A stretch of DNA of 64,000 nucleotides from contig NC_020911.1 of NCBI RefSeq assembly GCF_000155675.2, positions 2,036,501 to 2,100,500 of the forward strand, in the 5' to 3' direction. A model generated the notes under the pieces. The model had not been told where the DNA came from. It made no database searches and saw nothing but the letters and a program-made list of their open reading frames with translations. How positions within the stretch are numbered: the first letter of the stretch is position 1; each line of letters opens with the position of its first letter. Both the position numbers and the translations under genes were made by a program. Shown here one piece after another: positions 1,890 through 22,546 of this stretch. Source of the stretch: Octadecabacter antarcticus 307 (GTDB lineage: Bacteria; Pseudomonadota; Alphaproteobacteria; Rhodobacterales; Rhodobacteraceae).

Positions 1890-1961
1890 CCCTCTCACAC
1901 ATACTGCGTATGTGCTGCCGGCAAATGGGCAGGCGATTGCGAAGCAATCTGCCGAGAGGGG
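1890..1961 (+). repeat. Paired inverted palindromic elements, insertion site 1 in IS copy A1
   Basis: This 72-bp stretch interrupts the transposase between codons for Ala and Pro-Asn-Leu-Leu. It holds two units facing opposite ways and separated by AAT: unit one CCCTCTCA + CACATAC-TGC-GTATGTG + CTGCCGGCA, unit two the reverse complement of CCCTCTCGGCAGATTGC-TTC-GCAATCGCCTGCCC. The composite therefore begins CCCTCTC and ends GAGAGGG. It stays in frame and adds 24 codons. The same composite lies at 18373-18444 in copy A2. Confidence 0.8.
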
Positions 1962-2011
1962 CCAAACTTGCTGGAACAGAAGTTCCACAGCCAGACGCCT
2001 AATACCGTTTG

Positions 2012-2049
2012 CCCTCTCAGCGATGCAGAGCATCGCCTGCCGGGTAATA
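2012..2049 (+). repeat. Palindromic element, insertion site 2 in IS copy A1
   Basis: One 38-bp unit, CCCTCTCAGCGATGC-AGA-GCATCGCCTGCCGGGTAA. The stem GCGATGC/GCATCGC is perfect. It splits the expected Thr-Val-Trp-x-Ala-Asp-Ile-Thr-Tyr sequence just before the first catalytic Asp and shifts the frame. The copy at 18285-18322 is the same. Confidence 0.8.
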
Positions 2050-2077
2050 GGTGGCCGACATCACCTATATCGACACC

Positions 2078-2118
2078 CCTTCTCGGGATCATGCTTCGCA
2101 TAACCCTGCCGGGCAAGG
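2078..2118 (+). repeat. Palindromic element, insertion site 3 in IS copy A1
   Basis: A 41-bp unit with stem GGGATCATGC / GCATAACCC and loop TTC, ending CTGCCGGGCA-AGG. It separates the codons for Asp-Thr and Asp-Glu-Gly-Trp of the transposase core. The conserved end reads CCTTCTC here and CCCTCTC in the A2 copy (18216-18256), a single C-to-T change. Confidence 0.8.
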
Positions 2119-2277
2119 GACGAGGGCTGGCTTTATCTGGCTGGCGTGAAGGACATGGCCACGCGTGAGATCGTCGGCTGGGCAATGGAAGATCACATGC
2201 GTGCCGAGCTTTGCTGTGCCGCCCTCGAGATGGCTCTGGGACGCAGAGGCCCTGTTCCAGGGTTGATACACCACTCC

Positions 2278-2318
2278 CCCTCTCGGGATCATGCTTCGCA
2301 TAACCCTGCCGGGCAGTG
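2278..2318 (+). repeat. Palindromic element, insertion site 4, absent from the sister IS
   Basis: A 41-bp unit nearly identical to the one at 2078 (CCCTCTCGGGATC-ATGC-TTC-GCAT-AACCCTGCCGGGCA plus GTG). It sits exactly between the Ser codon of HHS and the Asp codon of DRG. In copy A2 the same HHS-DRG sequence is uninterrupted, the junction being 18056/18057. No target-site duplication is visible. This filled/empty pair is direct evidence that the unit inserts as a discrete piece. Confidence 0.85.
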
Positions 2319-2655
2319 GATAGGGGCCGCCAATATGCTGCTGGGGACTATCGCAAGTTGATCAAAAAGGCGAAGCTTACCCAGTCCATGAGCCGCAAGG
2401 GCGAGTGCCTCGACAATGCGCCTATGGAGAGTTTCTTTGCCTCACTGAAAAAGGAACTGGTGCACCATCAGCGCTTCAAAACACGCGCCCAGGCCAAGGC
2501 TGTAATCTTTGAATACATCGAGGTCTTCTATAACCGCCAGCGTCGCCATTCCGGCGTCGGATATCAAACGCCGCAACAGGCCTTCAATAATATGACTTGG
2601 GAAATGGCCGCATAGGGTCAATAACTAAACTGTACGGTTTCAGGGACGAAGTTTA

Positions 2656-3138
2656 CACAGCCAAAAACACAGCGTTTCTGAGCACTGCTGTTAGGCAAGG
2701 CTTGCTGGTGCTCTGGCTGGTTGCTCACTTTTGTTGGGTTCGACGTTGTGGGCGGAATGCTGACCGTATCTGAAAGATGCACAGATGGCGGCTAGGACAT
2801 AGCGGTGTAAGTTCCTCATGGACTATGTTGTGCGACTATTGAAGTAACCAACAATAACAGGTGTTTTCATCCCACAAAATTAAGTCGTAAACATGGCCAG
2901 CTCAATTCAGTTTTTTGTCTTACAAAGGGATCTCAAGCTAGAAAAATTATCGCCTAAATTTTAGCCAGATGATGGCTGAGGGTGGCTAAATTTTTTGCAC
3001 TTTAAAACCATGTCTCTCGGTAGCTTGAAATGTCTGGTTCTGCCATTGGTTTAGTCTAGCATACCTCCGAGTCTTTGTTGTCTGCAAAGGCTGCGTCAAT
3101 TTTCAGATCGCAACGAAAATCAAACAGGGTGAATTATC
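2656..3138. other. Intergenic stretch between IS copy A1 and the ABC importer
   Basis: No coding frame of note. It contains a hairpin with a T run at 2956-2996 and, nearer the importer, an AT-rich region that probably holds the promoter of the solute-binding protein gene. A weak Shine-Dalgarno-like GGGTG lies about seven bases before the start at 3139. Confidence 0.5.
2956..2996 (+). terminator. Hairpin followed by T run
   Basis: TTTAGCCA (2960-2967) pairs with TGGCTAAA (2983-2990), extended by flanking A/T pairs, and is followed by TTTTTT. The form fits a Rho-independent terminator on the + strand, although no intact gene ends just upstream, so it may be left from DNA displaced by the IS. 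Confidence 0.45.
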
Positions 3139-4719
3139 ATGAAAACAACATCGGCACTTACACTGGCCGCAGTGCTGCTTGCGACAACTGCACCGCTCAA
3201 TGCAGAAACGCTGCGTTGGGCACGCTCTGGAGACGCGCTGACTCTTGATCCGCACGCACAAAACGAGGGGCCTACCCATACGATTCGTCACCAAATGTAC
3301 GAACCCTTGATTATTCGCGACATCAGTGGCGCGTTTGAGGCGGCACTGGCGACCGACTGGGCACCCAAAGCAGATGATCCGAATATCTGGGTCTTTAATC
3401 TACGTGAAGGCGTGACTTTCCATGACGGTGCGGCATTCACTGCCGAAGACGTGGTCTTCAGCTTTGAGCGCGCCAAACAGCCAAATTCGGATATGAAAGA
3501 ACTGATCGGTTCGATAACGGAAGTGCGCGCGGTTGGTGACTTTTCTGTAGAGATCGTGACTGATGGACCCAACCCAATCCTTCCTTCCAATCTGACTAAT
3601 TTGTTCATCATGGACAAAGACTGGACCGAGGCGAATAACACCGTTGATGTGCAAGATTTTGAAGGTGGCGAGCTTACGTTTGCAACAACCAATGTAAACG
3701 GCACCGGCCCCTATGTGCTGCAAAGCCGTGAACCTGACGTCAAAACCGTTATGGTGCGCAACGATGCATACTGGGGCATTGATCAGTTTCCGATGGAGGT
3801 CACTGAAATCATTTATACCCCGATCCAAAACGCCGCGACCCGTGTGGCAGCGATGCTTTCAGGTGAGATCGATTTCTTACAAGACATGCCCGTGCAAGAT
3901 CTTGAGCGTGTGAATGCCGTCGATGGTTTGATTGTCAAACAGGCGCCACAAAACCGGGTTATTTTCTTTGGTATGAACCAAGGTGCTGATGATCTCGAAT
4001 CCGATAACATTGATGGTGCCAACCCACTGGCTGATGTGCGTGTTCGGCAGGCTATGTCGATGGCAATCAACCGCGATGCAATCCGTCAGGTTGTGATGCG
4101 TGGTCAAAGTGAACCAGCGGGCATGATCGCGCCACCATTTGTAAACGGCTGGACGGCTGAGATGGACGCGGAATCCTCTACAGATGTCGAAGCGGCCAAG
4201 GCTTTGTTGGCTGAAGCTGGCTATGCGGATGGTTTCTCGATCCGGTTGGATTGCCCAAATGACCGATATGTGAATGACGAAGGTATCTGTCAGGCTGCAG
4301 TCGGCATGTTGGGCCAAATCGGCATCACTGTGAATTTGGATGCTAAACCAAAAGCGCAGCACTTTCCGCTAATTAGTGGCGGTCAAACCGATTTTTATAT
4401 GTTGGGTTGGGGCGTGCCGACTTACGATTCTGAATATGTCTTCAACTTCCTTGTTCATTCCCGCGAGTCTGAGATTGGTACTTGGAACGCGACCGGTTTC
4501 TCTGATGCGGATCTAGATCTGATGATCCAATCGCTGGCCTCTAACACTGATCTTGAGGCACGCAATGCTGACATTGCGACGATTTGGCGGACCGTGCAGG
4601 ACGAACAGCTTTACATTCCAATTCATCACCAAGTGTTGAACTGGGGTATGTCGGAAAGAGTTGGGATTGAGGTCGATCCTGAAGACCAGCCAAAGATCAA
4701 ATATTTCACTATGAATTGA
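3139..4719 (+). CDS. ABC importer, periplasmic solute-binding protein (SBP_bac_5, peptide type)
   Basis: A 526-residue extracytoplasmic protein with a Sec signal peptide (about residues 1-22, MKTTSALTLAAVLLATTAPLNA). Family 5 features follow: LDPHAQNEG, the YEPLI motif, NLREGVTFHDGAAFTAEDVVFSFERA and ADVRVRQAMSMAINRDAI. These proteins deliver di-/oligopeptides, and in some cases nickel, glutathione or sugars, to a two-permease, two-ATPase importer. That set follows directly downstream. Length and domains are complete. The substrate cannot be told from sequence. Confidence 0.9.
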   Translation: MKTTSALTLAAVLLATTAPLNAETLRWARSGDALTLDPHAQNEGPTHTIRHQMYEPLIIRDISGAFEAALATDWAPKADDPNIWVFNLREGVTFHDGAAFTAEDVVFSFERAKQPNSDMKELIGSITEVRAVGDFSVEIVTDGPNPILPSNLTNLFIMDKDWTEANNTVDVQDFEGGELTFATTNVNGTGPYVLQSREPDVKTVMVRNDAYWGIDQFPMEVTEIIYTPIQNAATRVAAMLSGEIDFLQDMPVQDLERVNAVDGLIVKQAPQNRVIFFGMNQGADDLESDNIDGANPLADVRVRQAMSMAINRDAIRQVVMRGQSEPAGMIAPPFVNGWTAEMDAESSTDVEAAKALLAEAGYADGFSIRLDCPNDRYVNDEGICQAAVGMLGQIGITVNLDAKPKAQHFPLISGGQTDFYMLGWGVPTYDSEYVFNFLVHSRESEIGTWNATGFSDADLDLMIQSLASNTDLEARNADIATIWRTVQDEQLYIPIHHQVLNWGMSERVGIEVDPEDQPKIKYFTMN

Positions 4720-4733
4720 TCTGACAGTCCCAT

Positions 4734-4757
4734 GGCGCGCTAGTTATCTAGCGCGCC
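4734..4757 (+). promoter_or_regulatory. Strong hairpin after the binding-protein gene
   Basis: A perfect 10-bp inverted repeat, GGCGCGCTAG-TTAT-CTAGCGCGCC, begins 14 bases after the stop. There is no T run. In ABC operons such a structure often protects the 3' end of the binding-protein mRNA and lowers transcription into the permease genes, which would fit here; partial termination is the alternative. Confidence 0.65.
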
Positions 4758-4926
4758 AATACTGTTGCCAATGTGGCGAAGCTTAGTGATATGGCAACTT
4801 CGAAACTAGAAGCTGAATGTTTTGGTCCATGGTGAACATGACCTGTTGGCGATCAGTTTTGATATTCAAAATTAAATTCATCTGCAGGGCCGCCATACGC
4901 TCTTAGAAACTAAGGCAATTACCACC

Positions 4927-5907
4927 ATGCTGGCCTATATTATCCGTCGCGTCGTGCAATCGGCGCTTGTCTTGCTAATCGTCGGTCTTGCCGCGTTTTC
5001 GATGTTTCGTTTTGTTGGTGACCCGATCGAAAATATGCTTGGTCAGGAACGTACGACTGTTGATATTGAGCGGCTGCGCGACCAGCTCGGTCTGGATGAG
5101 CCGTTTATCGTGCAGTACGTCAAATTTCTTGAGGGTGCAGTGCAAGGCAACTTTGGAGTAAGCTACCGGCAGGGGCGGCCTGTGTCTGACATCTTGGTAG
5201 AACGCGCGCCTGCCACCCTGGAACTAGCAACTGTGTCATGTGTGCTTGCTATTGCGTTTGGCATCGCATTCGGTGTGTTTACAGCGATCCGGCGTGATGG
5301 ATTTTTGGCAAATTTTATCATGTCGACATCCCTGATTGGCGTATCGCTGCCGACGTTCCTCATTGGTATACTCCTGATATATATCTTTTCAGTAGAGCTC
5401 GGCTGGTTGCCCAGTTTTGGCCGTGGAGAGACGGTTCAAATTGGAAATTGGTCGACCGGGTTTCTGACTGCTTCGGGGTTGAAGGCGCTGATCTTGCCGT
5501 CTATCACACTTGGGCTTTATCAGATGACACTTATCATGCGGCTTGTGCGTTCTGAAATGCTTGAGGTCTTACGCCAAGACTACATTCGCTTTGCTCGCGC
5601 CCGTGGACTAAAGAACCGTACCATCAATTTTCGCCATGCGTTGAAAAACACAATGGTGCCTGTGATCACAGTTATCGGCTTGCAGCTTGGGTCTATCATC
5701 GCTTTTGCGATCATCACAGAAACGGTGTTTCAGTGGCCAGGAGTTGGCCTGCTTTTTATAAACGCTGTCCAATTTGTAGATATCCCAGTCATGGCGGCGT
5801 ATCTGATGTTGATTTCAGTCATGTTTGTAGCGATCAACCTGATTGTAGATATCCTTTATTTTTTTATTGATCCGCGTTTGCGCGTTGACCGGGCAGGGGG
5901 CCACTAA
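4927..5907 (+). CDS. ABC importer permease 1 (DppB/OppB type)
   Basis: A 326-residue inner-membrane protein. It begins with a transmembrane helix (MLAYIIRRVVQSALVLLIVGLA is the first hydrophobic stretch), has a periplasmic region with GLDEPFIVQYVKFL, then the BPD_transp_1 domain with the EAA-type loop near VLRQDYIRFARARGL and final helices. The stop overlaps the next start by one base (TAATG), so the two permeases are probably coupled in translation. It would form the channel with the protein encoded at 5907. Confidence 0.92.
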   Translation: MLAYIIRRVVQSALVLLIVGLAAFSMFRFVGDPIENMLGQERTTVDIERLRDQLGLDEPFIVQYVKFLEGAVQGNFGVSYRQGRPVSDILVERAPATLELATVSCVLAIAFGIAFGVFTAIRRDGFLANFIMSTSLIGVSLPTFLIGILLIYIFSVELGWLPSFGRGETVQIGNWSTGFLTASGLKALILPSITLGLYQMTLIMRLVRSEMLEVLRQDYIRFARARGLKNRTINFRHALKNTMVPVITVIGLQLGSIIAFAIITETVFQWPGVGLLFINAVQFVDIPVMAAYLMLISVMFVAINLIVDILYFFIDPRLRVDRAGGH

Positions 5908-6851
5908 TGAACGATACTTTAGACAAAATCCCACAGAGGTCGCGACTGCGCATGTTTTTAGACAGTGATATCTATTATGCGTTTCGCCGATCACCGGTTG
6001 CAGTGGTGTCCACAGTTGTCGTCAGCATTCTCATTTTGGCGGCTGTTTTCGCCCCGCTGATTGCACCGACGAACCCATTTAATCCTGCGACACTGAACCT
6101 GATGAATGGCTTTACAGGACCAATGGCCCCTAACGCCTTCACAGGTGAAAGTTTCTTGCTGGGCACTGATGACCAAGGTCGTGATGTATTTTCCACAATC
6201 CTTTATGGGATGCGGGTGTCTTTGTTTGTCGGTGTGGCAGCCGTACTATTTGCAATGGTTCTGGGGATCACATTGGGGCTGGTTTCTGGCTATGTTGGTG
6301 GTTGGACTGAGACGATTATTATGCGCGTCGCTGATGTGCAGCTTACGTTTCCGTCGATCCTTATAGCGATGCTGATTTTTGGCATCGCAAAAGGCGTAAC
6401 GCCTGTCGAATACCGTGACCAGATGGCCATATGGGTGCTTATCCTCGCTATCGGGCTGAGCGATTGGGTACAGTTTGCACGTGTTGTTCGTGGTGCCACT
6501 TTAGTTGAAAAACGCAAAGAATATGTTGAGGCAGCTCGGCTGATTGGTCGGACGCCCTGTGCCATTATGTTGCGTCATATCTTGCCCAATGTTCTGTCGC
6601 CTGTGCTAGTGATCGCAACGATATCGCTGGCCTTGGCTATTATAGCCGAAGCCACGCTTAGTTTTTTGGGTGTTGGCGCACCGGCGACCCAGCCATCATT
6701 GGGGACGCTGATCCGCATTGGGCAAGGGTATTTATTTTCGGGCGAATGGTGGATCTTACTGTTCCCTGCGCTCACACTTTTGACGCTGGCGTTAAGCGTG
6801 AATTTGCTGGGTGACTGGCTGCGCGATGCACTGAATCCGAGGCTGCGCTGA
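5907..6851 (+). CDS. ABC importer permease 2 (DppC/OppC type)
   Basis: A 314-residue inner-membrane protein. The N-terminal OppC_N segment (residues ~15-65) is followed by LLGTDDQGRDVFSTILYGMRVSL, typical of DppC, and the BPD_transp_1 domain with EYVEAARLIGR as the ATPase-coupling loop. The stop TGA overlaps the following ATG. It pairs with the permease at 4927. Confidence 0.92.
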   Translation: MNDTLDKIPQRSRLRMFLDSDIYYAFRRSPVAVVSTVVVSILILAAVFAPLIAPTNPFNPATLNLMNGFTGPMAPNAFTGESFLLGTDDQGRDVFSTILYGMRVSLFVGVAAVLFAMVLGITLGLVSGYVGGWTETIIMRVADVQLTFPSILIAMLIFGIAKGVTPVEYRDQMAIWVLILAIGLSDWVQFARVVRGATLVEKRKEYVEAARLIGRTPCAIMLRHILPNVLSPVLVIATISLALAIIAEATLSFLGVGAPATQPSLGTLIRIGQGYLFSGEWWILLFPALTLLTLALSVNLLGDWLRDALNPRLR

Positions 6852-7825
6852 TGTCAGACGTTGTTTTGTCGATCAGGGGTCTGTCCGTCAAGATTCCCAC
6901 CCGCAGCGGTATTGTAAAGCCCGTAGACGATATCAGCTATGACATCCGTGCGGGCGAAATTTTGGGTATTGTTGGCGAAAGTGGTGCAGGCAAATCAATG
7001 GCTGGCAATGCTGTTATTGGACTGCTGAACCCACCTGCGCAGATAGCGGCGGGCGAAATTTGGCTCAACGGCAGCCGCATAGATAATCTCAAAGACGCGG
7101 CGATGCGCCGCTTGCGTGGGAAACACATTGGAATGGTGTTCCAAGACCCTCTGACATCGCTTAACCCGCTGCTCAGCATTGGTGACCAGCTGACCGAAAC
7201 CATGCTGACCCACCTGCCTATCAGCCGATCCGAGGCACATCAGCGTGCTGTTGCTGCACTGGACGAAGTTGGAATTCCCGGTGCTGCTGAACGTATCGGC
7301 AGCTATCCGCATGAATTCAGTGGTGGGATGCGACAACGGGTTGTGATCGCGTTAGCACTCTGCGCTGAGCCGTCGTTGATTATTGCGGACGAACCGACCA
7401 CAGCACTAGACGTGTCTGTGCAGGCGCAGATCATTGCCCTGCTCAAACGGCTTTGCCGTGACCGGGGGACTGCTGTAATGCTGATTACGCATGATATGGG
7501 CGTTATTACAGAGGCAGCGGACCGCGTTGCTGTGATGTACGCTGGCCGCTTGGCCGAATTGGGTGCTGTGCGCGATGTGCTGACTCAACCCCAGCATCCT
7601 TACACCCAAGGTCTCATGGCCTCTACGCCACTGGCGTCACAGGGGAAAGCGCGGCTGCACCAAATCGAAGGGGCAATGCCCCGGCTGAATGCAGTTCCCG
7701 AAGGCTGCCCGTTTCATCCACGTTGTGCGTATGCGCAAGACAAATGCAGGGCCGCGCCCACACCACAAATTGTAGGTGGCCACGCTGCATGCTGGTTCCC
7801 ACTGATCGCACAAAAGGTATCGTGA
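6851..7825 (+). CDS. ABC importer ATP-binding protein 1 (DppD/OppD type)
   Basis: A 324-residue cytoplasmic ATPase. Visible motifs are Walker A (GESGAGKS, ~residue 40), the Q loop (VFQDPLTSLNP), the signature EFSGGMRQRV, Walker B (LIIADEPTTALD) and the switch His in LITHDMG. The C-terminal oligo_HPY region includes CPFHPRCAYAQDKC, whose cysteines form the Fe-S/metal cluster seen in DppD-type proteins. Start and stop overlap neighbours by four and three bases. Confidence 0.93.
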   Translation: MSDVVLSIRGLSVKIPTRSGIVKPVDDISYDIRAGEILGIVGESGAGKSMAGNAVIGLLNPPAQIAAGEIWLNGSRIDNLKDAAMRRLRGKHIGMVFQDPLTSLNPLLSIGDQLTETMLTHLPISRSEAHQRAVAALDEVGIPGAAERIGSYPHEFSGGMRQRVVIALALCAEPSLIIADEPTTALDVSVQAQIIALLKRLCRDRGTAVMLITHDMGVITEAADRVAVMYAGRLAELGAVRDVLTQPQHPYTQGLMASTPLASQGKARLHQIEGAMPRLNAVPEGCPFHPRCAYAQDKCRAAPTPQIVGGHAACWFPLIAQKVS

Positions 7826-8787
7826 TGTCGTTGATTTCTGTAAAGAACCTGACCCGCGTTTTTGACGTGTCCAAACCGTGGTTGAATAGGGTGATTGAGC
7901 GGCGTGCGAAGGCGTTTCTCACGGCAGTATCTGATGTGGATTTCGAAGTTGAAGAGCGCAGTACCTATGCACTGGTCGGCGAGAGTGGGTCTGGGAAATC
8001 CACCATTGGTCGCATGTTGGTTGGGCTGCTGACGCCCTCGTCAGGCAAGGTTGAAATTAACGGTGTGAACCTTGCGACCGAAACTGACGCAGACAAGGTT
8101 GATGTGATCAGGTCAGATATTCAGATGATTTTCCAAGACCCTTTTGCCTCGCTTAATCCGCGTTGGCGGGTGCGTGACATCATCGTGGAACCCGTTGTAG
8201 CCCGTGGTGGTGATGCGACGGGGCTGGCGGAAAAGCTGCTGGTACAAGTGGGACTTTCGGCGCTGGATGCTGGGAAATTTCCGCATGAATTTTCGGGTGG
8301 CCAACGGCAACGGATTTGTATTGCCCGCGCGTTGTCGTCTGAGCCAAAACTTATTGTGTGTGACGAGCCGACATCAGCACTTGATGTATCCGTGCAGGCG
8401 CAGGTCTTAAACTTAATGAGTGATCTTAAGGATAATTTTGGATTAACTTATGTTCTGATCAGCCACGACCTGACCGTGGTTCGACATATGGCTGACCGGA
8501 TTGGAGTTCTATACCTTGGACGACTGGTCGAGGAAGCGAGCCCTGAGGATTTGTTTACCGACACCAAACATCCGTATACTAAAATGCTGCTAGAAGCAGC
8601 CCCTCGGATGGATGGCTTTGGCCGCGAGGCAGACCTGCCAGAAGGTGAAATTCCAGACCCTATCGATCCGCCAAAGGGTTGTGCATTTAACCCGCGCTGC
8701 CCCATCGCTACGAATATTTGTAGACAAGAACGGCCTATGATGCGTCAGTTGGGTGATATTCGCGTTGCGTGCCATTTGGCAGATTAG
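7825..8787 (+). CDS. ABC importer ATP-binding protein 2 (DppF/OppF type)
   Basis: A 320-residue ATPase. I place the start at 7825 (MSLISVKNLTRVFDV), which overlaps the previous TGA, rather than an upstream in-frame codon. Motifs: GESGSGKSTIG (Walker A), IFQDPFASLNP (Q loop), EFSGGQRQRI (signature), LIVCDEPTSALD (Walker B), LISHDLTVV (switch), then an oligo_HPY tail with GCAFNPRCP. It completes the five-gene importer as the second nucleotide-binding subunit. Confidence 0.93.
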   Translation: MSLISVKNLTRVFDVSKPWLNRVIERRAKAFLTAVSDVDFEVEERSTYALVGESGSGKSTIGRMLVGLLTPSSGKVEINGVNLATETDADKVDVIRSDIQMIFQDPFASLNPRWRVRDIIVEPVVARGGDATGLAEKLLVQVGLSALDAGKFPHEFSGGQRQRICIARALSSEPKLIVCDEPTSALDVSVQAQVLNLMSDLKDNFGLTYVLISHDLTVVRHMADRIGVLYLGRLVEEASPEDLFTDTKHPYTKMLLEAAPRMDGFGREADLPEGEIPDPIDPPKGCAFNPRCPIATNICRQERPMMRQLGDIRVACHLAD

Positions 8788-9231
8788 CGTGATGCGGTGT
8801 TGTCAGAGGAAGCTGACTTGAGGTGGTCAAAGTGCCGACTTAGCTTTGTCGGACCACAAAACACAGCCCACTCTGCTACTTTAAAACGTGTCCTTAAATC
8901 ATTCGCTTGGCCGTGTTGATGTATGTCCGGTTTGCGCCTTCACTTCGAAATGTCCCGACACGGTTGAGAACGCGGCAACGCTTTGCCCGAACTGGCACCG
9001 CCGTGAACACTTTGGACCGGCCATTTGGCCCCACGGAGCAGTTGATCTAGGGTAGTGGCGGGCTGCAATAATGTGTTTGCGAAAGTGTTTGCCGACACCG
9101 TGTCAAACACAGCGTTTCAGTTTACTGTGTTGAACACAGTGTTTGCCTTTATGTGCTAACCAAACGATATCGCACAGTTTTTCGCACACCTCTAAAATAG
9201 TATAGTTTAGCAATTTAAAACTATGGCTTAT
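8788..9231. other. Intergenic stretch with palindromes, no gene
   Basis: No coding frame recognised. Just after the ATPase gene, 8831-8858 can fold (GTGCCGAC with GTCGG and GGTGGTC with GACCAC nearby), a possible terminator without a T run. A cluster of GTGTTTG/CAAACAC palindromes lies at 9072-9146 and is listed separately. The last 80 bases are AT-rich and run into the IS1595-family element. Confidence 0.5.
9072..9146. repeat. Cluster of GTGTTTG-type palindromes
   Basis: Within 75 bases there are three GTGTTTG units (9073, 9085, 9140) and two interlocking dyads: GTGTTTG...CAAACAC at 9085-9110 with inner GACAC/GTGTC, and a perfect 17-bp palindrome ACTGTGTTGAACACAGT at 9124-9140. Such spacing could be a multi-copy operator or an iteron-like protein binding site. 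No adjacent regulator gene explains it. Confidence 0.45.
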
Positions 9232-9242
9232 TTTAAACGCAA

Positions 9243-10407: not shown

Positions 10408-10418
10408 TTTAAACGCAA

Positions 10419-10466
10419 GTCTTGAAAATCCTCGTGTTGGTGGTTCGATTCCGCCTCCGGACACCA
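10419..10466 (+). other. tRNA/tmRNA-like 3' end, probable attachment-site remnant
   Basis: GGTGG-TTCGATT-CCGCC (10439-10455) makes a T arm with the canonical seven-base loop, followed by TCCGGAC, discriminator A and an encoded CCA (10456-10466). Upstream CTTGAAA resembles a UGA anticodon loop, but the stem around it does not pair and no matching 5' acceptor strand GTCCGGA is present even when the IS1595 element is removed. A bare 3' end of this kind is typical of the att site left by an integrating island or prophage. Whether the source was tRNA-Ser or tmRNA is unclear. Confidence 0.5.
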
Positions 10467-10467
10467 C

Positions 10468-10827: not shown

Positions 10828-10919
10828 GATCTAACCTTAATCATCCCTCACACACGCTTGGTGCGCTTGATACATAGGGCCAGATATTTTGAGACAAAAG
10901 CAGGGCGAAAAGATAAGGT

Positions 10920-13936: not shown

Positions 13937-14019
13937 GGCGTGTCTCCATTGGGTATGATCAGCGTGACGGGGCAAATTGCGTCTGTCAGGTTGAAAAGCG
14001 ACACTTACAGGCGACGCAA

Positions 14020-14775: not shown

Positions 14776-14879
14776 AGGATAAGGGTAAGAAGGGCGATCA
14801 TGGTGCCGCACGCGAGCGCAATTTTGCGGGGCTTGGTAGCGACAAGCCAGCGGAACGGGTCATATGCGATGGCGGCCAT
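14772..14879 (-). CDS. Possible small membrane protein or gene remnant, 35 residues
   Basis: The frame MAAIAYDPFRWLVATKPRK followed by a hydrophobic stretch (IALACGTMIALLTLIL) could be a one-helix membrane peptide. It overlaps the end of the DUF3445 gene on the other strand. No ribosome binding site stands out. The upstream 300 bases (14880-15176) contain no other gene I can support, so this may equally be the tail of a lost gene. Confidence 0.25.
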   Translation of the reverse strand: MAAIAYDPFRWLVATKPRKIALACGTMIALLTLIL

Positions 14880-15176
14880 GCTGCGCCCCGGCCACCGTAT
14901 TGATATGCGTCAATCGGTATCCTGTGGCTCTGCCACGCGCTCGGCATCCTGTTGGCACCTGTATGATAGGCAGAGGCTGGACGATTAGATATCCGATGCG
15001 CACCAAAACGTGGCGTTGAGGTTGCGCGTTGGGCCACTTTTGGCGTGAGAGAAAATTCAGTGTTGGTCATGAAATCACTTTGGCCCATCAATTCGTCAAC
15101 AAAACGGAACCGTTGTGGTATTTTGGGTGTTTGTTGGGGCCACAATGTGGCGGGTTGACCAAGCGCGGCTACAACT

Positions 15177-15205
15177 AAAAAAAGCGCCCCATTTGGGGGC
15201 GCCTT
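15177..15205 (-). terminator. Rho-independent terminator of glnB-glnA
   Basis: Read on the minus strand, GGCGCCCCC and GGGGCGC form a GC stem separated by AAAT and are followed by a run of seven T. It begins about 35 bases after the glnA stop. Confidence 0.85.
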
Positions 15206-15238
15206 TGCACTGGTGTTTAGGTCTCATCCCCTAGGCGG

Positions 15239-16645
15239 TTAGCAGCTGTAATACAGCTTAAATTCAACAGGGTGCGGGGTGTGTTCGTATTCGTAAACTT
15301 CCTCCCACTTAAGGTCCATGTAGCCCTGCAACTGATCCTTGGTGAACACATCGCCTTGCAGCAAGAAGTCCATATCTTTTTCCAACTCTTCCAGCGCTTC
15401 GCGCAAGGAACCGCAGACCGTCGGAATTTCAGCCAGTTCTTCTGGTGGTAGATCGTAAAGGTCCTTGTCGGATGCAGGACCGGGATCGATCTTGTTCTTG
15501 ATCCCGTCGACGCCGGCCATCAACAGTGCGGCAAAGCACAGGTATGGGTTGGCTGCTGGGTCAGGGAAACGGGCCTCAACGCGCTTGGCTTTGGGGGATT
15601 CTGTCCACGGAATCCGCACACAGCCGGACCGGTTGGACGCAGAATACGCCCGCAGAACCGGCGCTTCGAAGCCCGGGATTAGACGCTTGTAGGAATTCGT
15701 GGACGGGTTCGTGATCGCGTTCAGCGCCTTGGCATGCTTAAGGATGCCGCCGATGAAATACAGCGCTTCTTGTGACAGATCGGCATACTTGTCGCCTGCA
15801 AACAACGGCTTGCCGTCTTTCCAGATCGACATGTTCACGTGCATGCCCGTACCATTGTCTCCCGCGATGGGCTTTGGCATAAACGTTGCGGTTTTGCCGT
15901 AGGCCTGTGCGACATTGTGTACGACGTATTTGTACTTTTGCAGTTCATCGGCTTGTGTCGTCAACGTACCGAAGATCAGGCCGAGTTCGTGCTGGCAGGA
16001 CGCCACTTCGTGGTGGTGCTTGTCGACCTTCATGCCCATTCGTTTCATCGTCGACAACATCTCAGAGCGAATGTCCTGTGCGTCATCGATTGGGTTAACA
16101 GGGAAATAGCCGCCCTTAACACCGGGGCGGTGGCCCGTGTTGCCCATTTCGTACTGCGTGTCGGTGTTCCAAGATGCGTCGATTGCATCGACCTGGTAGG
16201 ACACTTTGTTGATACCGACTTGATAACGGACGTCATCAAATAAGAAGAATTCAGCTTCGGGACCCCAATAGGATGTGTCGCCGATACCGGTGGATTTCAA
16301 ATATGCCTCAGCGCGTTCGGCAGTGCCACGCGGGTCGCGGTCGTAGCCTTCGCCGGTGTCTGGTTCAACCACAGAACAATGGATGCACAGTGTTTTCTCA
16401 GCATAAAACGGGTCAATGTATGCGCTGTCCACGTCCAGCATCAGTTTCATGTCTGACTTATCAATTGATTTCCAACCTGCGATGGACGATCCGTCGAACA
16501 TAAATCCTTCTTCAAGAAAGTCTTCGTCAACTTGATCTGACATCAAGGTTACGTGCTGCAATTTTCCGCGCGGGTCGGTGAAACGGACGTCGACATAATC
16601 GATGTCCTCGTCTTTGATCATTTGGACAATATCTTTGTTGGTCAT
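15239..16645 (-). CDS. glnA: Glutamine synthetase, type I
   Basis: A 468-residue dodecameric GSI enzyme that makes glutamine from glutamate, ammonia and ATP. It shows [13 protein letters not shown] at the N-terminus, the [10 protein letters not shown] loop, the [10 protein letters not shown] and [11 protein letters not shown] active-site blocks, and near the C-terminus [20 protein letters not shown]. The adenylylation-site region ([13 protein letters not shown] precedes it, with YDLPPEE) is present, so control by GlnE is likely. It is downstream of glnB by 72 bp and ends at a strong terminator, so glnB-glnA forms an operon. Confidence 0.96.
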
Positions 16646-16717
16646 ATCAGCGGTCTTTCGTTTGATAGGTTTGATGTAGGACTGATCTTATTGCGCGTTT
16701 GATATAGCGTCTAATTT

Positions 16718-17389
<672 letters not shown>

Positions 17390-17719
17390 TTAACCGGCTG
17401 TACTGGCGACTTCGAGCCCGTCTGCGTAAACGATGTGCTGACGCTCAAAGATCAATTCATAGATGCTCAGTGTTTTGGCGTCGACTTGCGACACGACTTC
17501 ATCGTCAATCAGGCGCTTTGCCTTGACCGTTGCGACATCAGCGCCAAACAGTGCTTTTGCACGCCAGTCACGAATGTGAACCAGCGTGTCGGGGCCCACG
17601 ATCATATCGTCTTGTGGCCGCATATGGCCAAGGTCCCCCCCTTGATCTTGATAGCGGCCACGCGGATCTTTGAGATGCGCATTTCGCGCTGGATTTTCAT
17701 ACCGCTATCGCGGGTGATG
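17390..17719 (-). pseudogene. C-terminal fragment of a Hint-domain protein
   Basis: The frame ends with DTLVHIRDWRAKALFGADV, KRLIDDEVVSQV and YELIFERQHIVYADGLEVAST, the pattern of the Hint_2 (hedgehog/intein-like) domain common in secreted roseobacter proteins. Upstream residues IRVAAIKIKGG are in a different frame, and the switch falls at a run of seven G/C (17636-17642). The N-terminal part is cut off by IS copy A2 at 17720. The gene is therefore truncated and probably frameshifted. Confidence 0.6.
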
Positions 17720-18215
17720 TGAACTTCGTCCCTGAAACCGGACAGTTTATTTATTGACCCTATGCGGCCATTTTCCAAGTCATATCTTCAAATGCCTGCT
17801 GCGGTGTTTGGTAACCGATGCCGGAGTGGCGGCGCTGTCGGTTGTAGAAGACCTCGATATATTCAAAGATTGCAGCCTTAGCTTGGGCGCGGGTTCTGAA
17901 GCCTTGGCGATGGACCAGCTCCTTTTTCAATGACGCAAAAAAGCTCTCCATCGGTGCATTGTCCAGATATTCGCCCCTGCGACTCATAGATTGTGTGAGC
18001 CCTGCTTTTTTGATCAGCTCGCGATAGTCCCCACCAGCGTACTGACTGCCGCGGTCCGAATGATGGATCAACCCAGGAACGGGCCCCCTGCGACCCAAGG
18101 CCATGTTGAGGGCATCGCAGCAAAGTTCAGCGCGCATATGATCCTCCATCGCCCAGCCAACAATCTCACGCGTGGCCATGTCTTTCACGCCAGCCAGATA
18201 AAGCCAGCCCTCGTC

Positions 18216-18256
18216 CCTTGCCCGGCAGGGTTATGCGAAGCATGATCCCGAGAGGG
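18216..18256 (-). repeat. Palindromic element, site 3 in IS copy A2
   Basis: A 41-bp unit, CCCTCTCGGGATCATGC-TTC-GCATAACCCTGCCGGGCA plus AGG in transposase sense. It is the counterpart of 2078-2118, with the conserved CCCTCTC end intact. Confidence 0.8.
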
Positions 18257-18284
18257 GGTGTCGATATAGGTGATGTCGGCCACC

Positions 18285-18322
18285 TATTACCCGGCAGGCG
18301 ATGCTCTGCATCGCTGAGAGGG
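18285..18322 (-). repeat. Palindromic element, site 2 in IS copy A2
   Basis: A 38-bp unit identical to 2012-2049, with stem GCGATGC/GCATCGC and loop AGA. Confidence 0.8.
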
Positions 18323-18372
18323 CAAACGGTATTAGGCGTCTGGCTGTGGAACTTCTGTTCCAGCAAGTTTGG

Positions 18373-18444
18373 CCCCTCTCGGCAGATTGCTTCGCAATCG
18401 CCTGCCCATTTGCCGGCAGCACATACGCAGTATGTGTGAGAGGG
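18373..18444 (-). repeat. Paired inverted palindromic elements, site 1 in IS copy A2
   Basis: The 72-bp composite is the same as at 1890-1961: two units in opposite orientation with AAT between them and CCCTCTC/GAGAGGG at the outer ends. Confidence 0.8.
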
Positions 18445-18812
18445 GGCAATGGAAGGCTTCAGCATATGATTGCTGTCCGTCGTGATTGGCTTTCTACGCT
18501 TGCGAAGAAGCGAAGACACCTTGTTTTCCTTCATTATTCTGGCAACACGACGTTCAGAGACGACCTCACTATCCGCCAGCAAGTCTTGGTGAATACGCTT
18601 TGATCCATAGCATTTCTTACTGACCTTGAAGAAGGTTTTAATCTTGGGAAGCAACTCCTGATCTCGGGCCTCACGATTAACTTGACGTTGATCGCGTGTA
18701 GGCTGACTGGCTGGAAATCCGTAGAACCAGCCCCGGGATATCTCCAGGAGACGGCATAATATTGAAACCGCATATTGCGCTTTATGGGCAGTGATGAAAG
18801 TGCGCTTGCTCG

Positions 18813-19109
18813 TCATGGTTTCACCGCCCGCGTTGCGAAAAAAGCGGATGCTTTGTGCAAAATCTCCACGTCCTGAGCAAGCCGCTTGTTGTCTTTGCGA
18901 AGGCGGACCAATTCAGCCGCATCGGCTTGCTGACGCAGTTTGGCTTCAACTGAGCCAAATGCCTCGATCTCAAGCCGCCACGTCTTCAGCTGTGGACCAG
19001 TAATCCCGAGCTCCTTGGCAACGCAGCCTTGCGTCGCCCCAGGCGCGTACAGTCACTCAACTGCCCCGGCCTTATAATCGTCTGTGTACTTCCGCCGCTG
19101 TTGTCCCAT
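18813..19109 (-). pseudogene. IS3 orfA with nonsense codon (copy A2)
   Basis: A 98-codon frame, MGQQRRKYTDDYKAGAVE then TGA at codon 18, continuing LYAPGATQGCVAKELGITG and a leucine-rich end (LVRLRKDNKRLAQDVEIL). Its stop overlaps the orfB ATG, as in IS3 elements that rely on frameshifting. In copy A1 the stop position is an Arg codon (CGA). Confidence 0.75.
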
Positions 19110-19206
19110 CTGGTGCCCCTTTCACGGACAGGGGTAAAGTACCCCTGAAGTGGTCCTGCTTTTCAGGACAGGTATGTGGCTTGGCTAAGATGCATCTGAT
19201 TTATGT

Positions 19207-20100
19207 TCATGCCGTTTTTCGTATCTCCGCATGGCCAAAGTATGCGATGTCCGGTGTTCGCTTATCAAGGGCCGTGTGAGGGCGTTCTGAGTTGTAGAAC
19301 CCAATCCATGTATCGATGATCCTTTTTGCTTGGAACCCATCGGTGATTTCATGCAAGTAAACGGCCTCCTGCTTCAGGGATCGCCACAGACGTTCGATGA
19401 AGATTTTGCCGAGATAGCGGCCGCGTCCGTCCATTGATATTTTGATGTTGGCTTCGGTCAAAGTTGTGATCCAACCCGCACCAGTGTATTGGCTGCCCTG
19501 GACGTGTTCATGATCTCTGGCTTGCCGTATCGGGCGATAGCCTCCTCCAGCGCCTCAACACAGAAGCTAGCATCCAGCGTATTTGAGAGCCGCCAAGTCA
19601 GCACTTTTCGCGTTGCCCAGTCCATGATCGCCACCAGATACAAAAAACCATTCTTGACGGGTATGTAGGTGATGTCGCTGCACCAGACCTGATTGGGTCG
19701 GGTGATTGCCAACTTTCTCAGCAGGTATGGATAAATGCGGTGCTGTGGGTGCTTCTTGCTGGTGTTCGGCCCCTTGTAGATGGCCTGCACCCCCCCTCTC
19801 AGCGATGCTTTGCATCGCCTGCCGGGCACAAGGCATGATGTTCATCATGCGACGAACACGATGCCGACCCGCAGAGAACCCTGACTGGGGCAAATAGGCT
19901 GCTATCTGTCGGCTGCCAAAGAATGGATATTTCGTAAATATCCGATCAATCTCATGCATCAGCTTAAGCGTCTCAGCATTCACCCCAACTGGTGTGTAAT
20001 AGATCGACGAACGGCTGATCTTGAGCAGCTTACACTGGCGCGTCAGGCTCAGTTTTGTGTTCTCTTTGCGGACCATCTCGCGGCGTTTTGATGGGCTCAC
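19207..20100 (-). pseudogene. IS-B orfB transposase, two frame breaks
   Basis: An IS3 OrfB: N-terminus MSPSKRREMVRKENTKLSLTR, then IYYTPVGVNAETLKLMHEID, GPNTSKKHPQHRIYPYLLRK, NQVWCSDITYIPVKNGFLYLV (first Asp) and ERLWRSLKQEAVYL with the C-terminal Glu. It is broken first by a 40-bp palindrome at 19790-19829 and again near 19489, where the codon for the second catalytic Asp (expected Asn-Thr-Asp-Gln-Gly) is damaged and the frame shifts. Confidence 0.8.
19790..19829 (+). repeat. Palindromic element in IS-B orfB
   Basis: A 40-bp unit in + orientation: CCCTCTCAGCGATGC-TTT-GCATCGCCTGCCGGGCA, preceded by extra C. It lies antisense to the transposase gene and shifts its frame. The stem is the same as that at site 2 of IS-A but the loop is TTT instead of AGA. 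Confidence 0.8.
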
Positions 20101-20405
20101 CCCGGTGAATTCGCTTTAGCGAAATAACCTGTCTTCAGCCCTTGTGACAAAAAATCGTTCTCCACCGCTAACTGACCAATCTTGGCGTGCAGCTCTTTAA
20201 TCTCACCGGCCTTGTTCTGAGCCTTTTTGACCTTGTCGGTAAAAACCCCGGCCATGCCTTCGATCGCCTGTCGTTTCCATGTGCTCACCTGCGTTGGGTG
20301 GAGCTGCCGCTTGGCCGCAATCTCCTGAACCGTCTTGTCACCGCGCAGCGCCTCAAGCGCCACAGTAGCTTTAAAGTTGTCTGAAAAGTTCCGTCGCTTT
20401 GTCAT
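20097..20405 (-). CDS. IS-B orfA, helix-turn-helix protein
   Basis: A 102-residue frame from MTKRRNFSDNFKATVALEAL. It has the IS3 OrfA helix-turn-helix (GDKTVQEIAAKRQLHPTQVSTWK) and a C-terminal coiled-coil region (EIKELHAKIGQLAVENDFL). It overlaps the start of orfB by four bases, as expected. It is intact, but its partner is not. Confidence 0.75.
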   Translation of the reverse strand: MTKRRNFSDNFKATVALEALRGDKTVQEIAAKRQLHPTQVSTWKRQAIEGMAGVFTDKVKKAQNKAGEIKELHAKIGQLAVENDFLSQGLKTGYFAKANSPG

Positions 20406-20471
20406 CCTCGTATCCATTCGTTCGTGTTGGATACATCTTAGCACGCTGTCCAGTTTTGCCGGACCACTTCA

Positions 20472-20664
20472 CCCACTCAGAACGCGGCGATAGTAGCATC
20501 AAGTGGTTTAATGGGTCCTGAACCTAATGAAGATAAGCCATCGGCTTTCAGCTGGTTCGCTTCAGCGTAAATTCTAATGACCTCTCCTTCACATTTTGAA
20601 GCCCCCGATTGGGGTAAGGCTTCAAAATGTGAAGGAGAGATCATGGCCTATTCTACAGGATCAT
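20472..20664. other. Gap between IS-B and IS-C holding a large palindrome
   Basis: No gene. The palindrome at 20578-20643 occupies the right half. A GGAGAG ribosome-binding-like stretch and an ATG (20643) follow it, but the frame is cut at once by IS-C. Confidence 0.5.
20578..20643. repeat. 26-bp inverted repeat with 14-bp spacer
   Basis: The left arm starts TGACCTCTCCTTCACATTTT and ends GAAGCC (20578-20603). The right arm is its inverted copy with one mismatch (20618-20643). The spacer CCCGATTGGGGTAA can extend the pairing. Ends of TGA...TCA type suggest two terminal repeats of a lost IS brought together by deletion; a strong transcription terminator or operator is the alternative. Confidence 0.6.
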
Positions 20665-20682
20665 TGAGGAGCCCCTAGTTTG

Positions 20683-21600
20683 CTAGACACCTGCCTTGAT
20701 CATTTTCCTTTGTTTGGTTTCATAGTCAACCGGCGACAGCATGCCGTTGTTGGTATGCTTGCGGTTTGGGTTATAGAACATCTCGATGTAGTCGAACATG
20801 TCCTGTCTCGCGGCGTCGCGCGTCAGATACATCCGCCGCCTGATGCGCTCACGTTTCAACAGTTGAAAGAAGCTCTCTGCGACGGCGTTGTCATGGCAGT
20901 TCCCACGTCTGCTCATACTGGCATCTAAATTGTGTTTGCTGAGGAACGATTGCCACTCCTTGCTGGTGAATTGTGAGCCTTGACCCGAGTGGACCATTAC
21001 TTTGGTCTTAGGCTTGCGCCGCCAAACAGCACTCAGCAGGGCCTGCAAGGCGAGGTCCGTCGTCATGCGCGATTGCATCGACCACCCAACCACACGCCTT
21101 GAGAACAGATCAATCACAACAGCCAGATACGACCAACCTTCGTGCGTCTTGATATAGGTGATGTCAGTGACCCAAACGAGAGCGGTCATATCGACCTCAA
21201 ACTGTCGATCCAGTGTGTTATCAGCGACCACCGCTGGCTTGCCGCCATATCGAGCAGGTCGACGTTTGTAGCCAATCTGGGCAGTGACACCTGCCAAGCT
21301 GGCCAAACGCGCCACACGGTTCTCTGAACAGGTCTCACCCGCGTCACGCAGATCGTCATGCAGTTTGCGGTATCCATAGACTTTGCCGCTATCTGCCCAG
21401 GCCTGCTGGATCAGATCCGTTTGACGCACATCTTCAAGTGCACGCTGGCTCAATGGCTCCTTAAGCCATGCATAGAAGCCGCTGAAATGCACCAACAGGA
21501 CCCGGCACATTGAACGGACTGAAAACTCAAGCGATGTGCCTCCCTCTCGGGACATTGCTGCGCAATACCCTGCCAGGCAGTGAATAAACGCGTACCTCAC
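20683..21600 (-). CDS. IS-C orfB transposase with palindrome insertion near its start
   Basis: A 305-residue IS3 OrfB that is open throughout. Motifs: SMCRVLLVHFSGFYAWL, YGYRKLHDDL, ALVWVTDITYIKTHEGWSYLAVVIDLFSRRVVGW (first Asp), KVMVHSGQGSQFTS where the second catalytic Asp is replaced by Gly (HSGQGSQ for HSDQGSQ), and SMSRRGNCHDNAVAESFF (Glu). Residues ~8-21 (CLAGYCAAMSREGG) come from a palindromic element inserted in frame. The lost Asp alone should inactivate the enzyme. Start is GTG overlapping the orfA stop. Confidence 0.8.
   Translation of the reverse strand: MRYAFIHCLAGYCAAMSREGGTSLEFSVRSMCRVLLVHFSGFYAWLKEPLSQRALEDVRQTDLIQQAWADSGKVYGYRKLHDDLRDAGETCSENRVARLASLAGVTAQIGYKRRPARYGGKPAVVADNTLDRQFEVDMTALVWVTDITYIKTHEGWSYLAVVIDLFSRRVVGWSMQSRMTTDLALQALLSAVWRRKPKTKVMVHSGQGSQFTSKEWQSFLSKHNLDASMSRRGNCHDNAVAESFFQLLKRERIRRRMYLTRDAARQDMFDYIEMFYNPNRKHTNNGMLSPVDYETKQRKMIKAGV
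21542..21579 (+). repeat. Palindromic element in IS-C orfB
   Basis: A 38-bp unit in + orientation, CCCTCTCGGGACATTGC-TGC-GCAATACCCTGCCAGGCA, antisense to the transposase. It sits after the seventh codon and keeps the frame open. Confidence 0.8.
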
Positions 21601-21878
21601 TGAGACTCTCGAGCGAAGTACGCGGTCGCCTTTTTTAGGATGTTGCGTTCCTCAGTGACGCGGACCAGTTCCTTTTTGACCAGCTTGAGCTCAGCGGCCA
21701 AATCTAACTCAACATCTCAAACTCGTGCTGGCTTCGCAAACTGCGCCTTCCAAGTGTAAAGCGACTTGGTGCTGATCCCTAACCGCTCAGCCACTTCGCT
21801 TACTGCGTATCCGCGCTCCACGACCTGCATCACAGCATCCCGCTTGAACTCATCCGTAAACCGCATTCCCTTACTCAT
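21597..21878 (-). pseudogene. IS-C orfA with nonsense codon
   Basis: MSKGMRFTDEFKRDAVMQVV starts a standard OrfA helix-turn-helix (AVSEVAERLGISTKSLYTWK). After KPARV there is TGA, and the same frame continues DVELDLAAELKLVKKELVRV to KKATAYFARESQ. The 93-codon gene is thus interrupted once near codon 52. Confidence 0.75.
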
Positions 21879-21940
21879 ATCCATCTCTCCTTGGTTCCAA
21901 AATTACCAAGCAAAGCGTCTACAAATCTAGGGGCATCTCA

Positions 21941-22128
21941 TGACGCTAGTGTTCTCCAGGCGCCAATCCGTATCCTAAAAGGTGGTTCGGCAAGCAAAGA
22001 GGAGTTTTCTACAAAAATCCATCTCTTCTTTCGAGAAGCGCTCATTCGAATGCTCGAATATCGCAAAGTGATTTTGAGTGTGCTGAAAGAGTCTGAGAGG
22101 TCTAATTTCTTGGTTGATGCATCACCAC
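21941..22128. other. Relic DNA between IS-C and the IS5-family remnant
   Basis: The + strand has an open stretch (EEFSTKIHLFFREALIRMLEY... in part) that is not recognisable and is cut off at both sides by mobile elements. I do not support a gene here. Confidence 0.35.
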
Positions 22129-22356
22129 GGTCTTGTTGCACAAATAGCTATCTGTGGGAATTCATGTTGCGAATACAACGTGATAGCTGGTGCGTATGTG
22201 CACATTTGCCCCCCCCCGATTTATCGCACGAAGAACTGGCCTGAGTACAACCGCGCCCTAAAAAAACGCGGATCACTAACTTTTTGGTTTAACCCAGAGG
22301 TCACTTGGAAGGCTGCGCCAACCACTGCCCGCGCATCAAAGTGGAGGGCGAAGGTG

Positions 22357-22397
22357 CCCTCTCGGCAGCATGCTTTGCATGCGCCTATCTGGTAATA
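22357..22397 (+). repeat. Palindromic element in IS5-family relic, first
   Basis: CCCTCTCGGCAGCATGC-TTT-GCATGCGCCTATCTGGTAA. The right conserved end is diverged (CTATCTGG for CTGCCGGG) while the stem remains perfect. It splits Glu-Gly-Glu-Gly from Glu-Trp-Asn of the transposase. Confidence 0.75.
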
Positions 22398-22507
22398 AGT
22401 GGAACGCGCGCAAGCATGGTGGACCCAAGCGCCGGTTGTGGCGCAAGATACATATTCCTTGCCCGGCAGGGCATTGTTGAACAAACACTGGAGATCCGTG
22501 CCATCCA

Positions 22508-22546
22508 TTGCCGACAGGCGATTGCAAAGCAATCTGCCGAGAGGGG
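22508..22546 (-). repeat. Palindromic element in IS5-family relic, second
   Basis: On the minus strand CCCTCTCGGCAGATTGC-TTT-GCAATCGCCTGTCGGCAA. It interrupts the transposase between Arg-Ala-Ile and Val-Thr-Gly-Ser-Asn, adding about 39 bp in frame. Confidence 0.75.

Follow-up and report, generated by a model that had tools for sequence, protein, structure and literature searches.

What are the short palindromic units that crowd into insertion sequence (IS) transposase genes in a 64,000-nucleotide stretch of Octadecabacter antarcticus 307 DNA (hereafter, the window), and how did they come to be there? All the positions at which the preliminary description placed its thirteen units were found to contain one (Table 1). 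Counted as independent insertions, they are fewer: one IS is present in two copies, and its units at 18216-18444 correspond to the insertions at 1890-2118 in the other copy. Both members of the pair reported at 1890 and 1927 are also present, with the correction that the latter is a minus-strand unit whose 3' end hosts the former. The pattern CCCTCTCN{15,24}CTGCC matches 10 times in the window, where shuffled sequences predict 0.03 matches. A hairpin-requiring detector, which replaced a looser first detector (1.4 calls per shuffled window), made 10 calls in the window, none of them past 24 kb, and none in the reversed window; it is blind to the units at 1928, 18374 and 22357, the 3' boxes of which are incomplete.

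Table 1. Hairpin units and host IS genes in the window
Feature	Coordinates	Strand	Remarks
Host IS3-family copy	1270..2660	+	HTH_21; rve_2/rve_3
Unit	1890..1927	+	Stem ACACATAC/GTATGTG; nested in 3' end of 1928 unit
Unit	1928..1961	-	Stem GGCAGATTGC/GCAATCGCC; 3' end split by 1890 unit
Unit	2012..2049	+	Stem AGCGATGC/GCATCGC; net insertion 38 nt
Unit	2078..2118	+	Stem GGGATCATGC/GCATAACCC; net insertion 41 nt; directly after VADITYIDT codons (by eye)
Unit	2278..2318	+	At HSD motif (by eye); net insertion 41 nt; missing from the 17.7-19.1 kb copy
Second host IS3-family copy	17716..19150	-	Compared with first copy, 96% identical in one part, 82% in another
Unit	18216..18256	-	Second IS copy; same insertion as at 2078
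Unit	18285..18322	-	Second IS copy; same insertion as at 2012
Unit	18374..18406	+	Second IS copy; same insertion as at 1928
Unit	18407..18444	-	Second IS copy; same insertion as at 1890
Unit	19794..19831	+	Antisense to IS3-family transposase
IS3-family orfB	20683..21600	-	Complete rve, 305 aa
Unit	21542..21582	+	Antisense, near N-terminus of IS3 orfB
Degenerate unit	22357..22396	+	In IS5-like relic (family by eye; Pfam empty on three ORFs)
Solo 3' box CTGCCGGGCAAGG	22457..22469	-	No hairpin; the same site has a full unit in L095
Unit	22505..22545	-	Stem GGCAGATTGC/GCAATCGCC

The units share a simple layout, namely, (C)CCCTCTC-R, a variable stem of 6-9 bp, and CTGCCGGGC-ARYG, with GAYG as the 3' flank. 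The constant ends, CCCTCTC and CTGCCGGGCARYG, enclose the stem within about 37-43 nt. The consensus was built from 207 non-redundant sites, and the sequence logos of 75 clusters from the O. antarcticus genome and of 104 sites from other genomes are alike. The stem sequence varies freely while self-complementarity is kept: 45 of the 48 distinct middles from this genome, collected with no stem criterion, pair at five or more of six positions, compared with 2.5% of shuffles. Among elements pre-selected for a stem, the stem positions are paired in 93-99% of cases versus 59-75% when the 3' letters are shuffled. Mismatches in 153 distinct elements include 32 A.C and 19 G.T, so there is no sign of selection at the RNA level, and an RNA-level structure was rejected; a search of window positions 1200-2700 against Rfam gave a single match (E 7.6), below the gathering threshold and off any unit.

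The units are insertions, as the preliminary description had proposed: empty sites were found in Octadecabacter arcticus, in Leisingera and in paralogous copies. Nor is the motif, among the copies examined, a native part of these IS in pristine form, since unit-free homologous copies exist. The insertion point adjoins GAYG; the 3' junction is regular, and at the 5' junction 0-3 target bases are lost or changed. No target duplication was visible by eye in the empty-site pairs inspected or in the 7 closest further pairs. Covariation of target positions was considered as a guiding sign and rejected, with top values barely exceeding the null maximum.

The 4.88-Mb O. antarcticus genome contains 339 exact matches to the pattern, against none for the reversed-pattern control. 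Of 390 genomes from the order Rhodobacterales, 180 contain the pattern, which is nearly absent from the rest of the class. Unit load tracks the load of rve matches in 20 of 21 chosen genomes; against this, G343 has 20 rve matches and no units.

In the window together with 60 regularly spaced stretches of the same genome (1.2 Mb), 129 of 133 units are linked to transposase genes, which belong to many different IS families; the linkage used is transitive and permissive and leaves out overlapping neighbors of the same locus. The remaining four lie by transposases recognized by Pfam (two) or by eye only (two). When a small peptide set served as the transposase mask, 42 of 123 units fell outside it, of which 23 lay in open frames and 19 in non-coding DNA; these 42 were assigned only through the permissive transitive linkage. 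Pfam scans of the longest ORFs, in which spurious frames were often chosen, returned any family for 11 of 40. A transposase context was also found for 27 of 30 units in genomes G162 and G388. The strict confinement to IS originally claimed does not hold in general: 22 of 113 units from other named records have no transposase link, and contigs from elsewhere have units in C5-methylase (viral contigs) and RelE-type genes. In L192, a Y2_Tnp gene itself hosts a unit. The use of both orientations, also noted earlier, was borne out (70 sense, 53 antisense to the gene), and among the 133 units there is no equal density in intergenic DNA or ordinary genes.

A simple account of this distribution, suggested as a cause in the preliminary description, is tolerance: insertion would occur anywhere, and units would persist in dead IS copies, where nothing selects against them. 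Up to 9 units within 1.6 kb of IS DNA, and an IS copy with five units whose counterpart, 92-96% alike, has none, are compatible with this account. So are the reading frames, which are broken in 33 of 33 cases where the homologous transposase was matched separately on each side, a test to which in-frame cases are invisible. Yet non-coding non-IS DNA makes up as much as 12.4% of the sample (an upper bound, given the small transposase mask) and holds few or no units; given the share of units at transposases, tolerance alone is a poor explanation. Moreover, site re-use is orientation-specific. A homologous site is re-occupied by a unit with another stem in the same orientation 52 times and in the opposite one twice, compared with 31 and 30 at control sites; at least one such site was found for 31 of 170 index units, and the counts are not independent, because each pair enters twice, once from either side, and related copies recur. 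The re-use occurs recurrently at the identical nucleotide, and some of it could reflect subsequent exchange of units between copies. Finally, unit-carrying IS are amplified, units being present in 9 of the 11 lineages with at least three identical-score copies. Tolerance as the cause thus appears improbable.

The amplified IS raise the possibility that the units do not harm their hosts. A 1.56-kb IS is present in 10 copies that are 99-100% alike, each with the same two units; in the one copy that was read, each of the two orfs is shifted by one unit and otherwise open. Among the 40 of 157 candidates that were scored, the other listed relatives of this IS are 71-79% alike over part of its length, or consist of a 95-base piece. 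Another case is an IS5 type with 22 copies of identical score: each of the 7 copies that fall in the sample has a unit beside it. Stop codons are scarce in the units: over six frames, the 167 distinct middles contain 0.98 stops against 1.88 expected, and the 20 stem families 1.10 against 2.02, with none of 2000 nulls as low; all six frames are open in 65 of the 167.

These three features would fit inserts adapted to coding sequence, whether in the manner of Rickettsia palindromic elements (RPE) or through splicing or bypass, with the unit read through or removed such that the transposase remains active. However, the net length is a multiple of three in only 11 of the 75 clusters of the O. antarcticus genome, the IS5-type unit introduces an in-frame TGA, and the copy number of unit-bearing lineages is not significantly higher (p=0.11). 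Furthermore, the amplified clusters comprise five sense and five antisense cases, and a single RNA-level process could hardly serve both orientations. We consider such an adaptation unlikely. Tentatively, the units may be reversible or recodable inserts that coexist with working IS rather than killing them, that is, a removable or read-through lock on the transposase; this conjecture draws on the continued amplification of IS with frames broken only by units, on the exchange, at one nucleotide, of units with different stems where the flanks of the copies are 99-100% identical, and on the avoidance of stop codons.

For the units themselves, we lean toward the view that Rhodobacterales carry a very small mobile hairpin, non-autonomous and riding on other mobile DNA, of which the units are copies. 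They are probably transferred as single-stranded DNA by a factor acting in trans. An enzyme or host pathway would read the constant foot and ignore the distal stem, and the folded strand, 5'-CAYTGCCC-GGCA-[stem]-GAGA-GGG, would be joined beside CRTC. The IS would act as vehicles; a unit inside a transposase gene is copied along with that IS. The single-strand step is suggested by the anatomy of the units. Less favorably, the predicted foot helix is part of the bottom-strand DNA optimum for 3 of 5 stem types, and predicted DNA folding is hardly better than that of shuffles.

The search for a mobilizing gene found none. In 1.26 Mb, no longer element sharing these ends was seen; the 15 unmatched 3' boxes there were judged by eye to be 10 diverged units and 5 chance matches. 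Mobilization by a Y1 transposase (RAYT or TnpA), with the units being REP or IS200/IS605-type elements, accords with the 24 Y1_Tnp matches in the O. antarcticus genome and with the size, single hairpin and missing target duplication, all of which resemble REP and IS200/IS605 ends. It is very improbable, nonetheless: the unit-rich genomes G162, G285 and G388 (92, 61 and 32 units, respectively) have no match to Y1_Tnp (PF01797), the consensus has no GTAG or CGTC tag, and the units are not extragenic. A group II intron or other retroelement acting in trans was rejected as well, no reverse transcriptase (PF00078, RVT_1) being matched in the unit-holding genomes G162, G285, G181, G361 and G097. Host defense through units placed so as to inactivate transposases, for which the nearly exclusive targeting of transposase genes and the often broken frames might speak, seems most implausible, given that unit-carrying IS are amplified, that copies already holding units gain more, and that no associated protein was found.

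Taken as mobile hairpins, the units appear to represent a type of very small mobile element, carried by marine Rhodobacterales, that has not been described. They would add a class of elements of about 40 nt that parasitizes other mobile DNA across a marine bacterial order; its members have constant ends and a stem that is free to vary, and are highly selective about where they insert. Such a class makes it possible to test what moves so small an element, why transposase genes are chosen, and how frame-broken IS still spread; it could also explain some of the IS genes annotated as broken in roseobacters. Should the inserts prove reversible or recodable, they would represent a novel form of transposase lock that can be removed or read through.

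We did not encounter a description of these units in the passages of PMC3646047 (on Octadecabacter genomes) or PMC3733652 that were available, or in the literature searched, which was chiefly open-access; the main text of PMC3646047 contains neither the string 'palindrom' nor 'hairpin'. The units resemble REP, which are high-copy palindromic units of 20-40 bp whose hairpin has a constant part at one end, but show neither of the REP tags GTAG and CGTC named in the title of PMC3733652 (207-site consensus), and combine a varying stem with two constant tails. REP are mainly extragenic and are linked to the Y1 transposase (RAYT), whereas the present units are intragenic, with 129 of the 133 in O. 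antarcticus at transposase coding DNA, and three high-copy genomes have no Y1 gene. RPE are small, stop-poor palindromes within coding sequence. The present units are likewise intragenic, stop-depleted and translatable, but their length is not tied to codons, they occur in both orientations, and their hosts are genes of mobile DNA rather than ordinary genes. With MITEs, they share small size, non-autonomy and empty sites, but not terminal inverted repeats (CCCTCTC and CTGCCGGGCARYG have only CCC/GGG in common) or, as far as seen, a target duplication. The ends of IS91/Helitron-type (Y2 HUH) elements combine a near-end hairpin, a short target, and one exact and one loose end. The units match all of these features, the target adjoining them; they differ in being only about 40 nt long, with no autonomous relative seen. 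Fungal mitochondrial double-hairpin elements are ultrashort mobile hairpins of organelle DNA, with two hairpins and no known bias toward transposases; the units described here are similarly ultrashort mobile hairpins, but are single-hairpin, bacterial, and mostly located in transposase genes.

Direct inspection of the window (G000:C2:2036501-2100500, within a 4.88-Mb genome of two contigs) revealed a unit at each position where the preliminary description had placed one. The pattern CCCTCTCN{15,24}CTGCC matches 10 times in the window, compared with 0.03 expected, and CCCTCTCN{15,24}CTGCCRGG matches 339 times genome-wide (176 and 163 on the two strands), with none for the reversed-pattern control. 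In 60 regularly spaced 20-kb stretches (1.2 Mb; 58 from the large contig and 2 from the small one), a detector that requires a hairpin called 123 units, and none in the reversed control. These units are strongly clumped, as indicated by the mean of 2.05 and variance of 10.9 per stretch, with half of the stretches (30 of 60) empty.

The constant ends of the unit are (C)CCCTCTC on one side and CTGCCGGGC-A-R-Y-G on the other, after which GAYG flanks; the interior consists of a purine, a 6-9 bp stem, with a single bulged base (usually A) in the long stem types, and a loop. At a similarity threshold of our choice, the stems form 20 families. With no stem criterion applied, at least 5 of 6 pairs form in 45 of 48 distinct middles from the Octadecabacter antarcticus 307 genome (shuffles, 2.5%) and in 78 of 114 from other genomes (shuffles, 3.5%). 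Stem pairing is preserved where both sides of the stem have changed, in a set of elements that had been selected for the stem. Selection for an RNA hairpin after insertion is unsupported because, among the mismatches in 153 distinct elements, A.C (32) is no rarer than G.T (19). With RNA parameters, the bottom strands of four stem types adopt similar folds, comprising a CCC/GGG foot and an internal GGCA/GAGA loop; with DNA parameters, the foot is present in the optimal fold for three of five stem types.

The units of the window are absent, at the unit boundaries, from plasmid DNA of Octadecabacter arcticus and from Leisingera copies, and further empty sites were found among paralogous copies. 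The net gain per insertion is mostly the core plus 4 nt, sometimes falling 1-2 nt short of this or exceeding it by 1 nt, and no target duplication was seen by eye when filled and empty copies were compared. In the same by-eye reading, the 3' junction is regular, and the 5' junction shows loss or replacement of 0-3 target bases, with C a frequent replacement. Units also insert into units, given that the unit at 1890 lies within the 3' end of the one at 1928. A solo 3' box without a hairpin, at a site that a full unit fills in another stretch, could be a 5'-truncated insertion or the product of a later deletion. Elsewhere, the 3' end of one unit is partly duplicated.

Coordinates of units and other features; L numbers denote other stretches of DNA compared
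Stretch	Position	Feature
Window	22457-22469	Solo 3' box
L095	15460	Full unit at the site of the solo box
L104	1754-1811	Unit with partly duplicated 3' end
L088	7154	Differing unit at one nucleotide, first group
L024	991	Same, first group
L025		Same, second group
L110	15919	Same, second group
L114	3732	Same, second group
L027	994	Same, second group
L281	8880	Unit in C5-methylase gene
L302	5560	Unit in C5-methylase gene
L309	1527	Unit in C5-methylase gene
L162	1346	Unit in RelE-type gene
L295	1472	Unit in RelE-type gene
L075	1-1556	IS3-type element of 1.56 kb
Window	1456-2276, 18058-18878	Compared parts of two IS3 copies
Window	20577-20644	27-bp inverted repeat (96%), 14-bp loop

Genome-wide mapping of Pfam matches (rve, DDE_Tnp_1 and Transposase_mut) placed a transposase within 700 bp of 76 of the 123 sampled units, compared with 8.2% of random positions. 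With 99 transposase peptides as queries, a match was found within 90 bp of 94 of 133 units from this genome; 35 more were tied to transposase contexts through translated similarity, two of the remaining four adjoin an IS110-type match (PF02371), and two (in L104) were assigned to transposases by eye only. Non-coding non-IS DNA makes up at most 12.4% of the sample, a figure that includes some IS DNA because the known-transposase mask covers just 6.0%. In two genomes of other genera (G162 and G388), 27 of 30 unit contexts are transposases by similarity (for 3 of these, the pattern position stood in for the central unit, which the detector had not called), two are so by eye (IS110, IstB), and one was not judgeable. 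Transposases are linked to 91 of the 113 units in named genomes and plasmids, with Pfam adding DDE_Tnp_1 (L131), IstB (L194) and Y2_Tnp (L192); one unit (L204) adjoins an ornithine cyclodeaminase gene. Among viral contigs, 51 stretches match the pattern. The detector identifies 21 units there, and five of these represent a single repeated sequence whose flank is unrelated. IMG/VR contigs carry three units with different stems at one place in a C5-methylase gene (identified by Pfam in L281 and by translation in L302 and L309), and a RelE-type gene (by Pfam in L295, by translation in L162) holds a unit at the same place in two contigs. Thus, of the confinement to IS transposase genes initially proposed, the preponderance of transposases holds and the strict restriction does not: the bias is toward genes of mobile DNA, transposases first.

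Each unit site was compared with homologous sites less than 90% identical: 519 were empty, a unit with a different stem filled 52 in the same orientation and 2 in the opposite one, 28 held the same stem, and 26 were other; at least one site re-occupied by another stem was found for 31 of the 170 index units with any homologous site. For GAYG controls (1300 nearby sites, 560 with a homologous site), 1733 homologous sites were empty, 31 were filled in the same and 30 in the opposite orientation, and 39 were other. The pairs lack independence, since each relation enters the count once from either side and copies recur. Even so, the same nucleotide is re-used by units in the same orientation beyond what GAYG alone gives. 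Within this genome, copies of one IS whose flanks agree at 99-100% differ in the unit that they hold at the same nucleotide, which may reflect a unit swap or repeated insertion.

The reading frame is broken in 33 of 33 cases with homologous transposase matches separately on both sides, a test blind to in-frame insertions, which would yield one match. Stop codons across six frames occur in the units at half the expectation from stem-preserving shuffles; despite this depletion, the net length is divisible by 3 in only 11 of 75 clusters. An IS3-type element has 10 copies (nine aligned along the full query, one along most of it), 99-100% identical, each with two units. In the one copy read, orfA and orfB are each frameshifted by a unit only and are otherwise open, including the DFTY, SDNGSSY and E motifs. 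The other relatives listed, among 40 of 157 candidates scored, match part of the element at 71-79% or share a 95-base piece; a unit-free copy may have been missed by the search. An IS5 type with 22 identical-score copies has a unit beside all seven copies sampled, and a unit lies within 900 bp in 9 of 11 lineages with at least three identical-score copies (1-7 members sampled in each). Lineages average 3.7 copies with units (n=24) and 1.9 without (n=12; p=0.11). Amplified IS thus carry units, so no block of IS spread by the units is visible; helpers, since lost, may be behind the spread of unit-bearing IS. The two IS3 copies of the window share 96% identity across one part and 82% across the other, which suggests recombination between IS copies. 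The inverted repeat beside the IS3 at 20.7 kb is unrelated to the units.

Across the order, 390 genomes from 139 genera were searched, and 180 of them, from 84 genera, contain the pattern; the low per-genome counts include chance matches (the control gives 1-3 in some genomes). In a class-wide draw of 385 genomes, 13 match. Four belong to the same family (Octadecabacter antarcticus 307 among them), and in the other nine the matches resemble hairpin units by eye only for G504 and G582. Among 21 genomes picked for many units or none, nine unit-bearing ones have 18-132 rve matches, compared with 0-9 in eleven of twelve unit-free ones, the exception being G343 (20 matches, no unit). In profile searches, Y1_Tnp and RVT_1 were each absent from several many-unit genomes.

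These observations are consistent with a mobile hairpin of very small size, reliant on something in trans and with IS as the vehicle. We infer that the substrate moved would be a folded single DNA strand, because the foot is constant and the distal stem free, one junction is regular and the other loose, and the mismatches do not favor RNA. Most interesting about these units are that they favor transposase genes and that IS spread even with broken frames.
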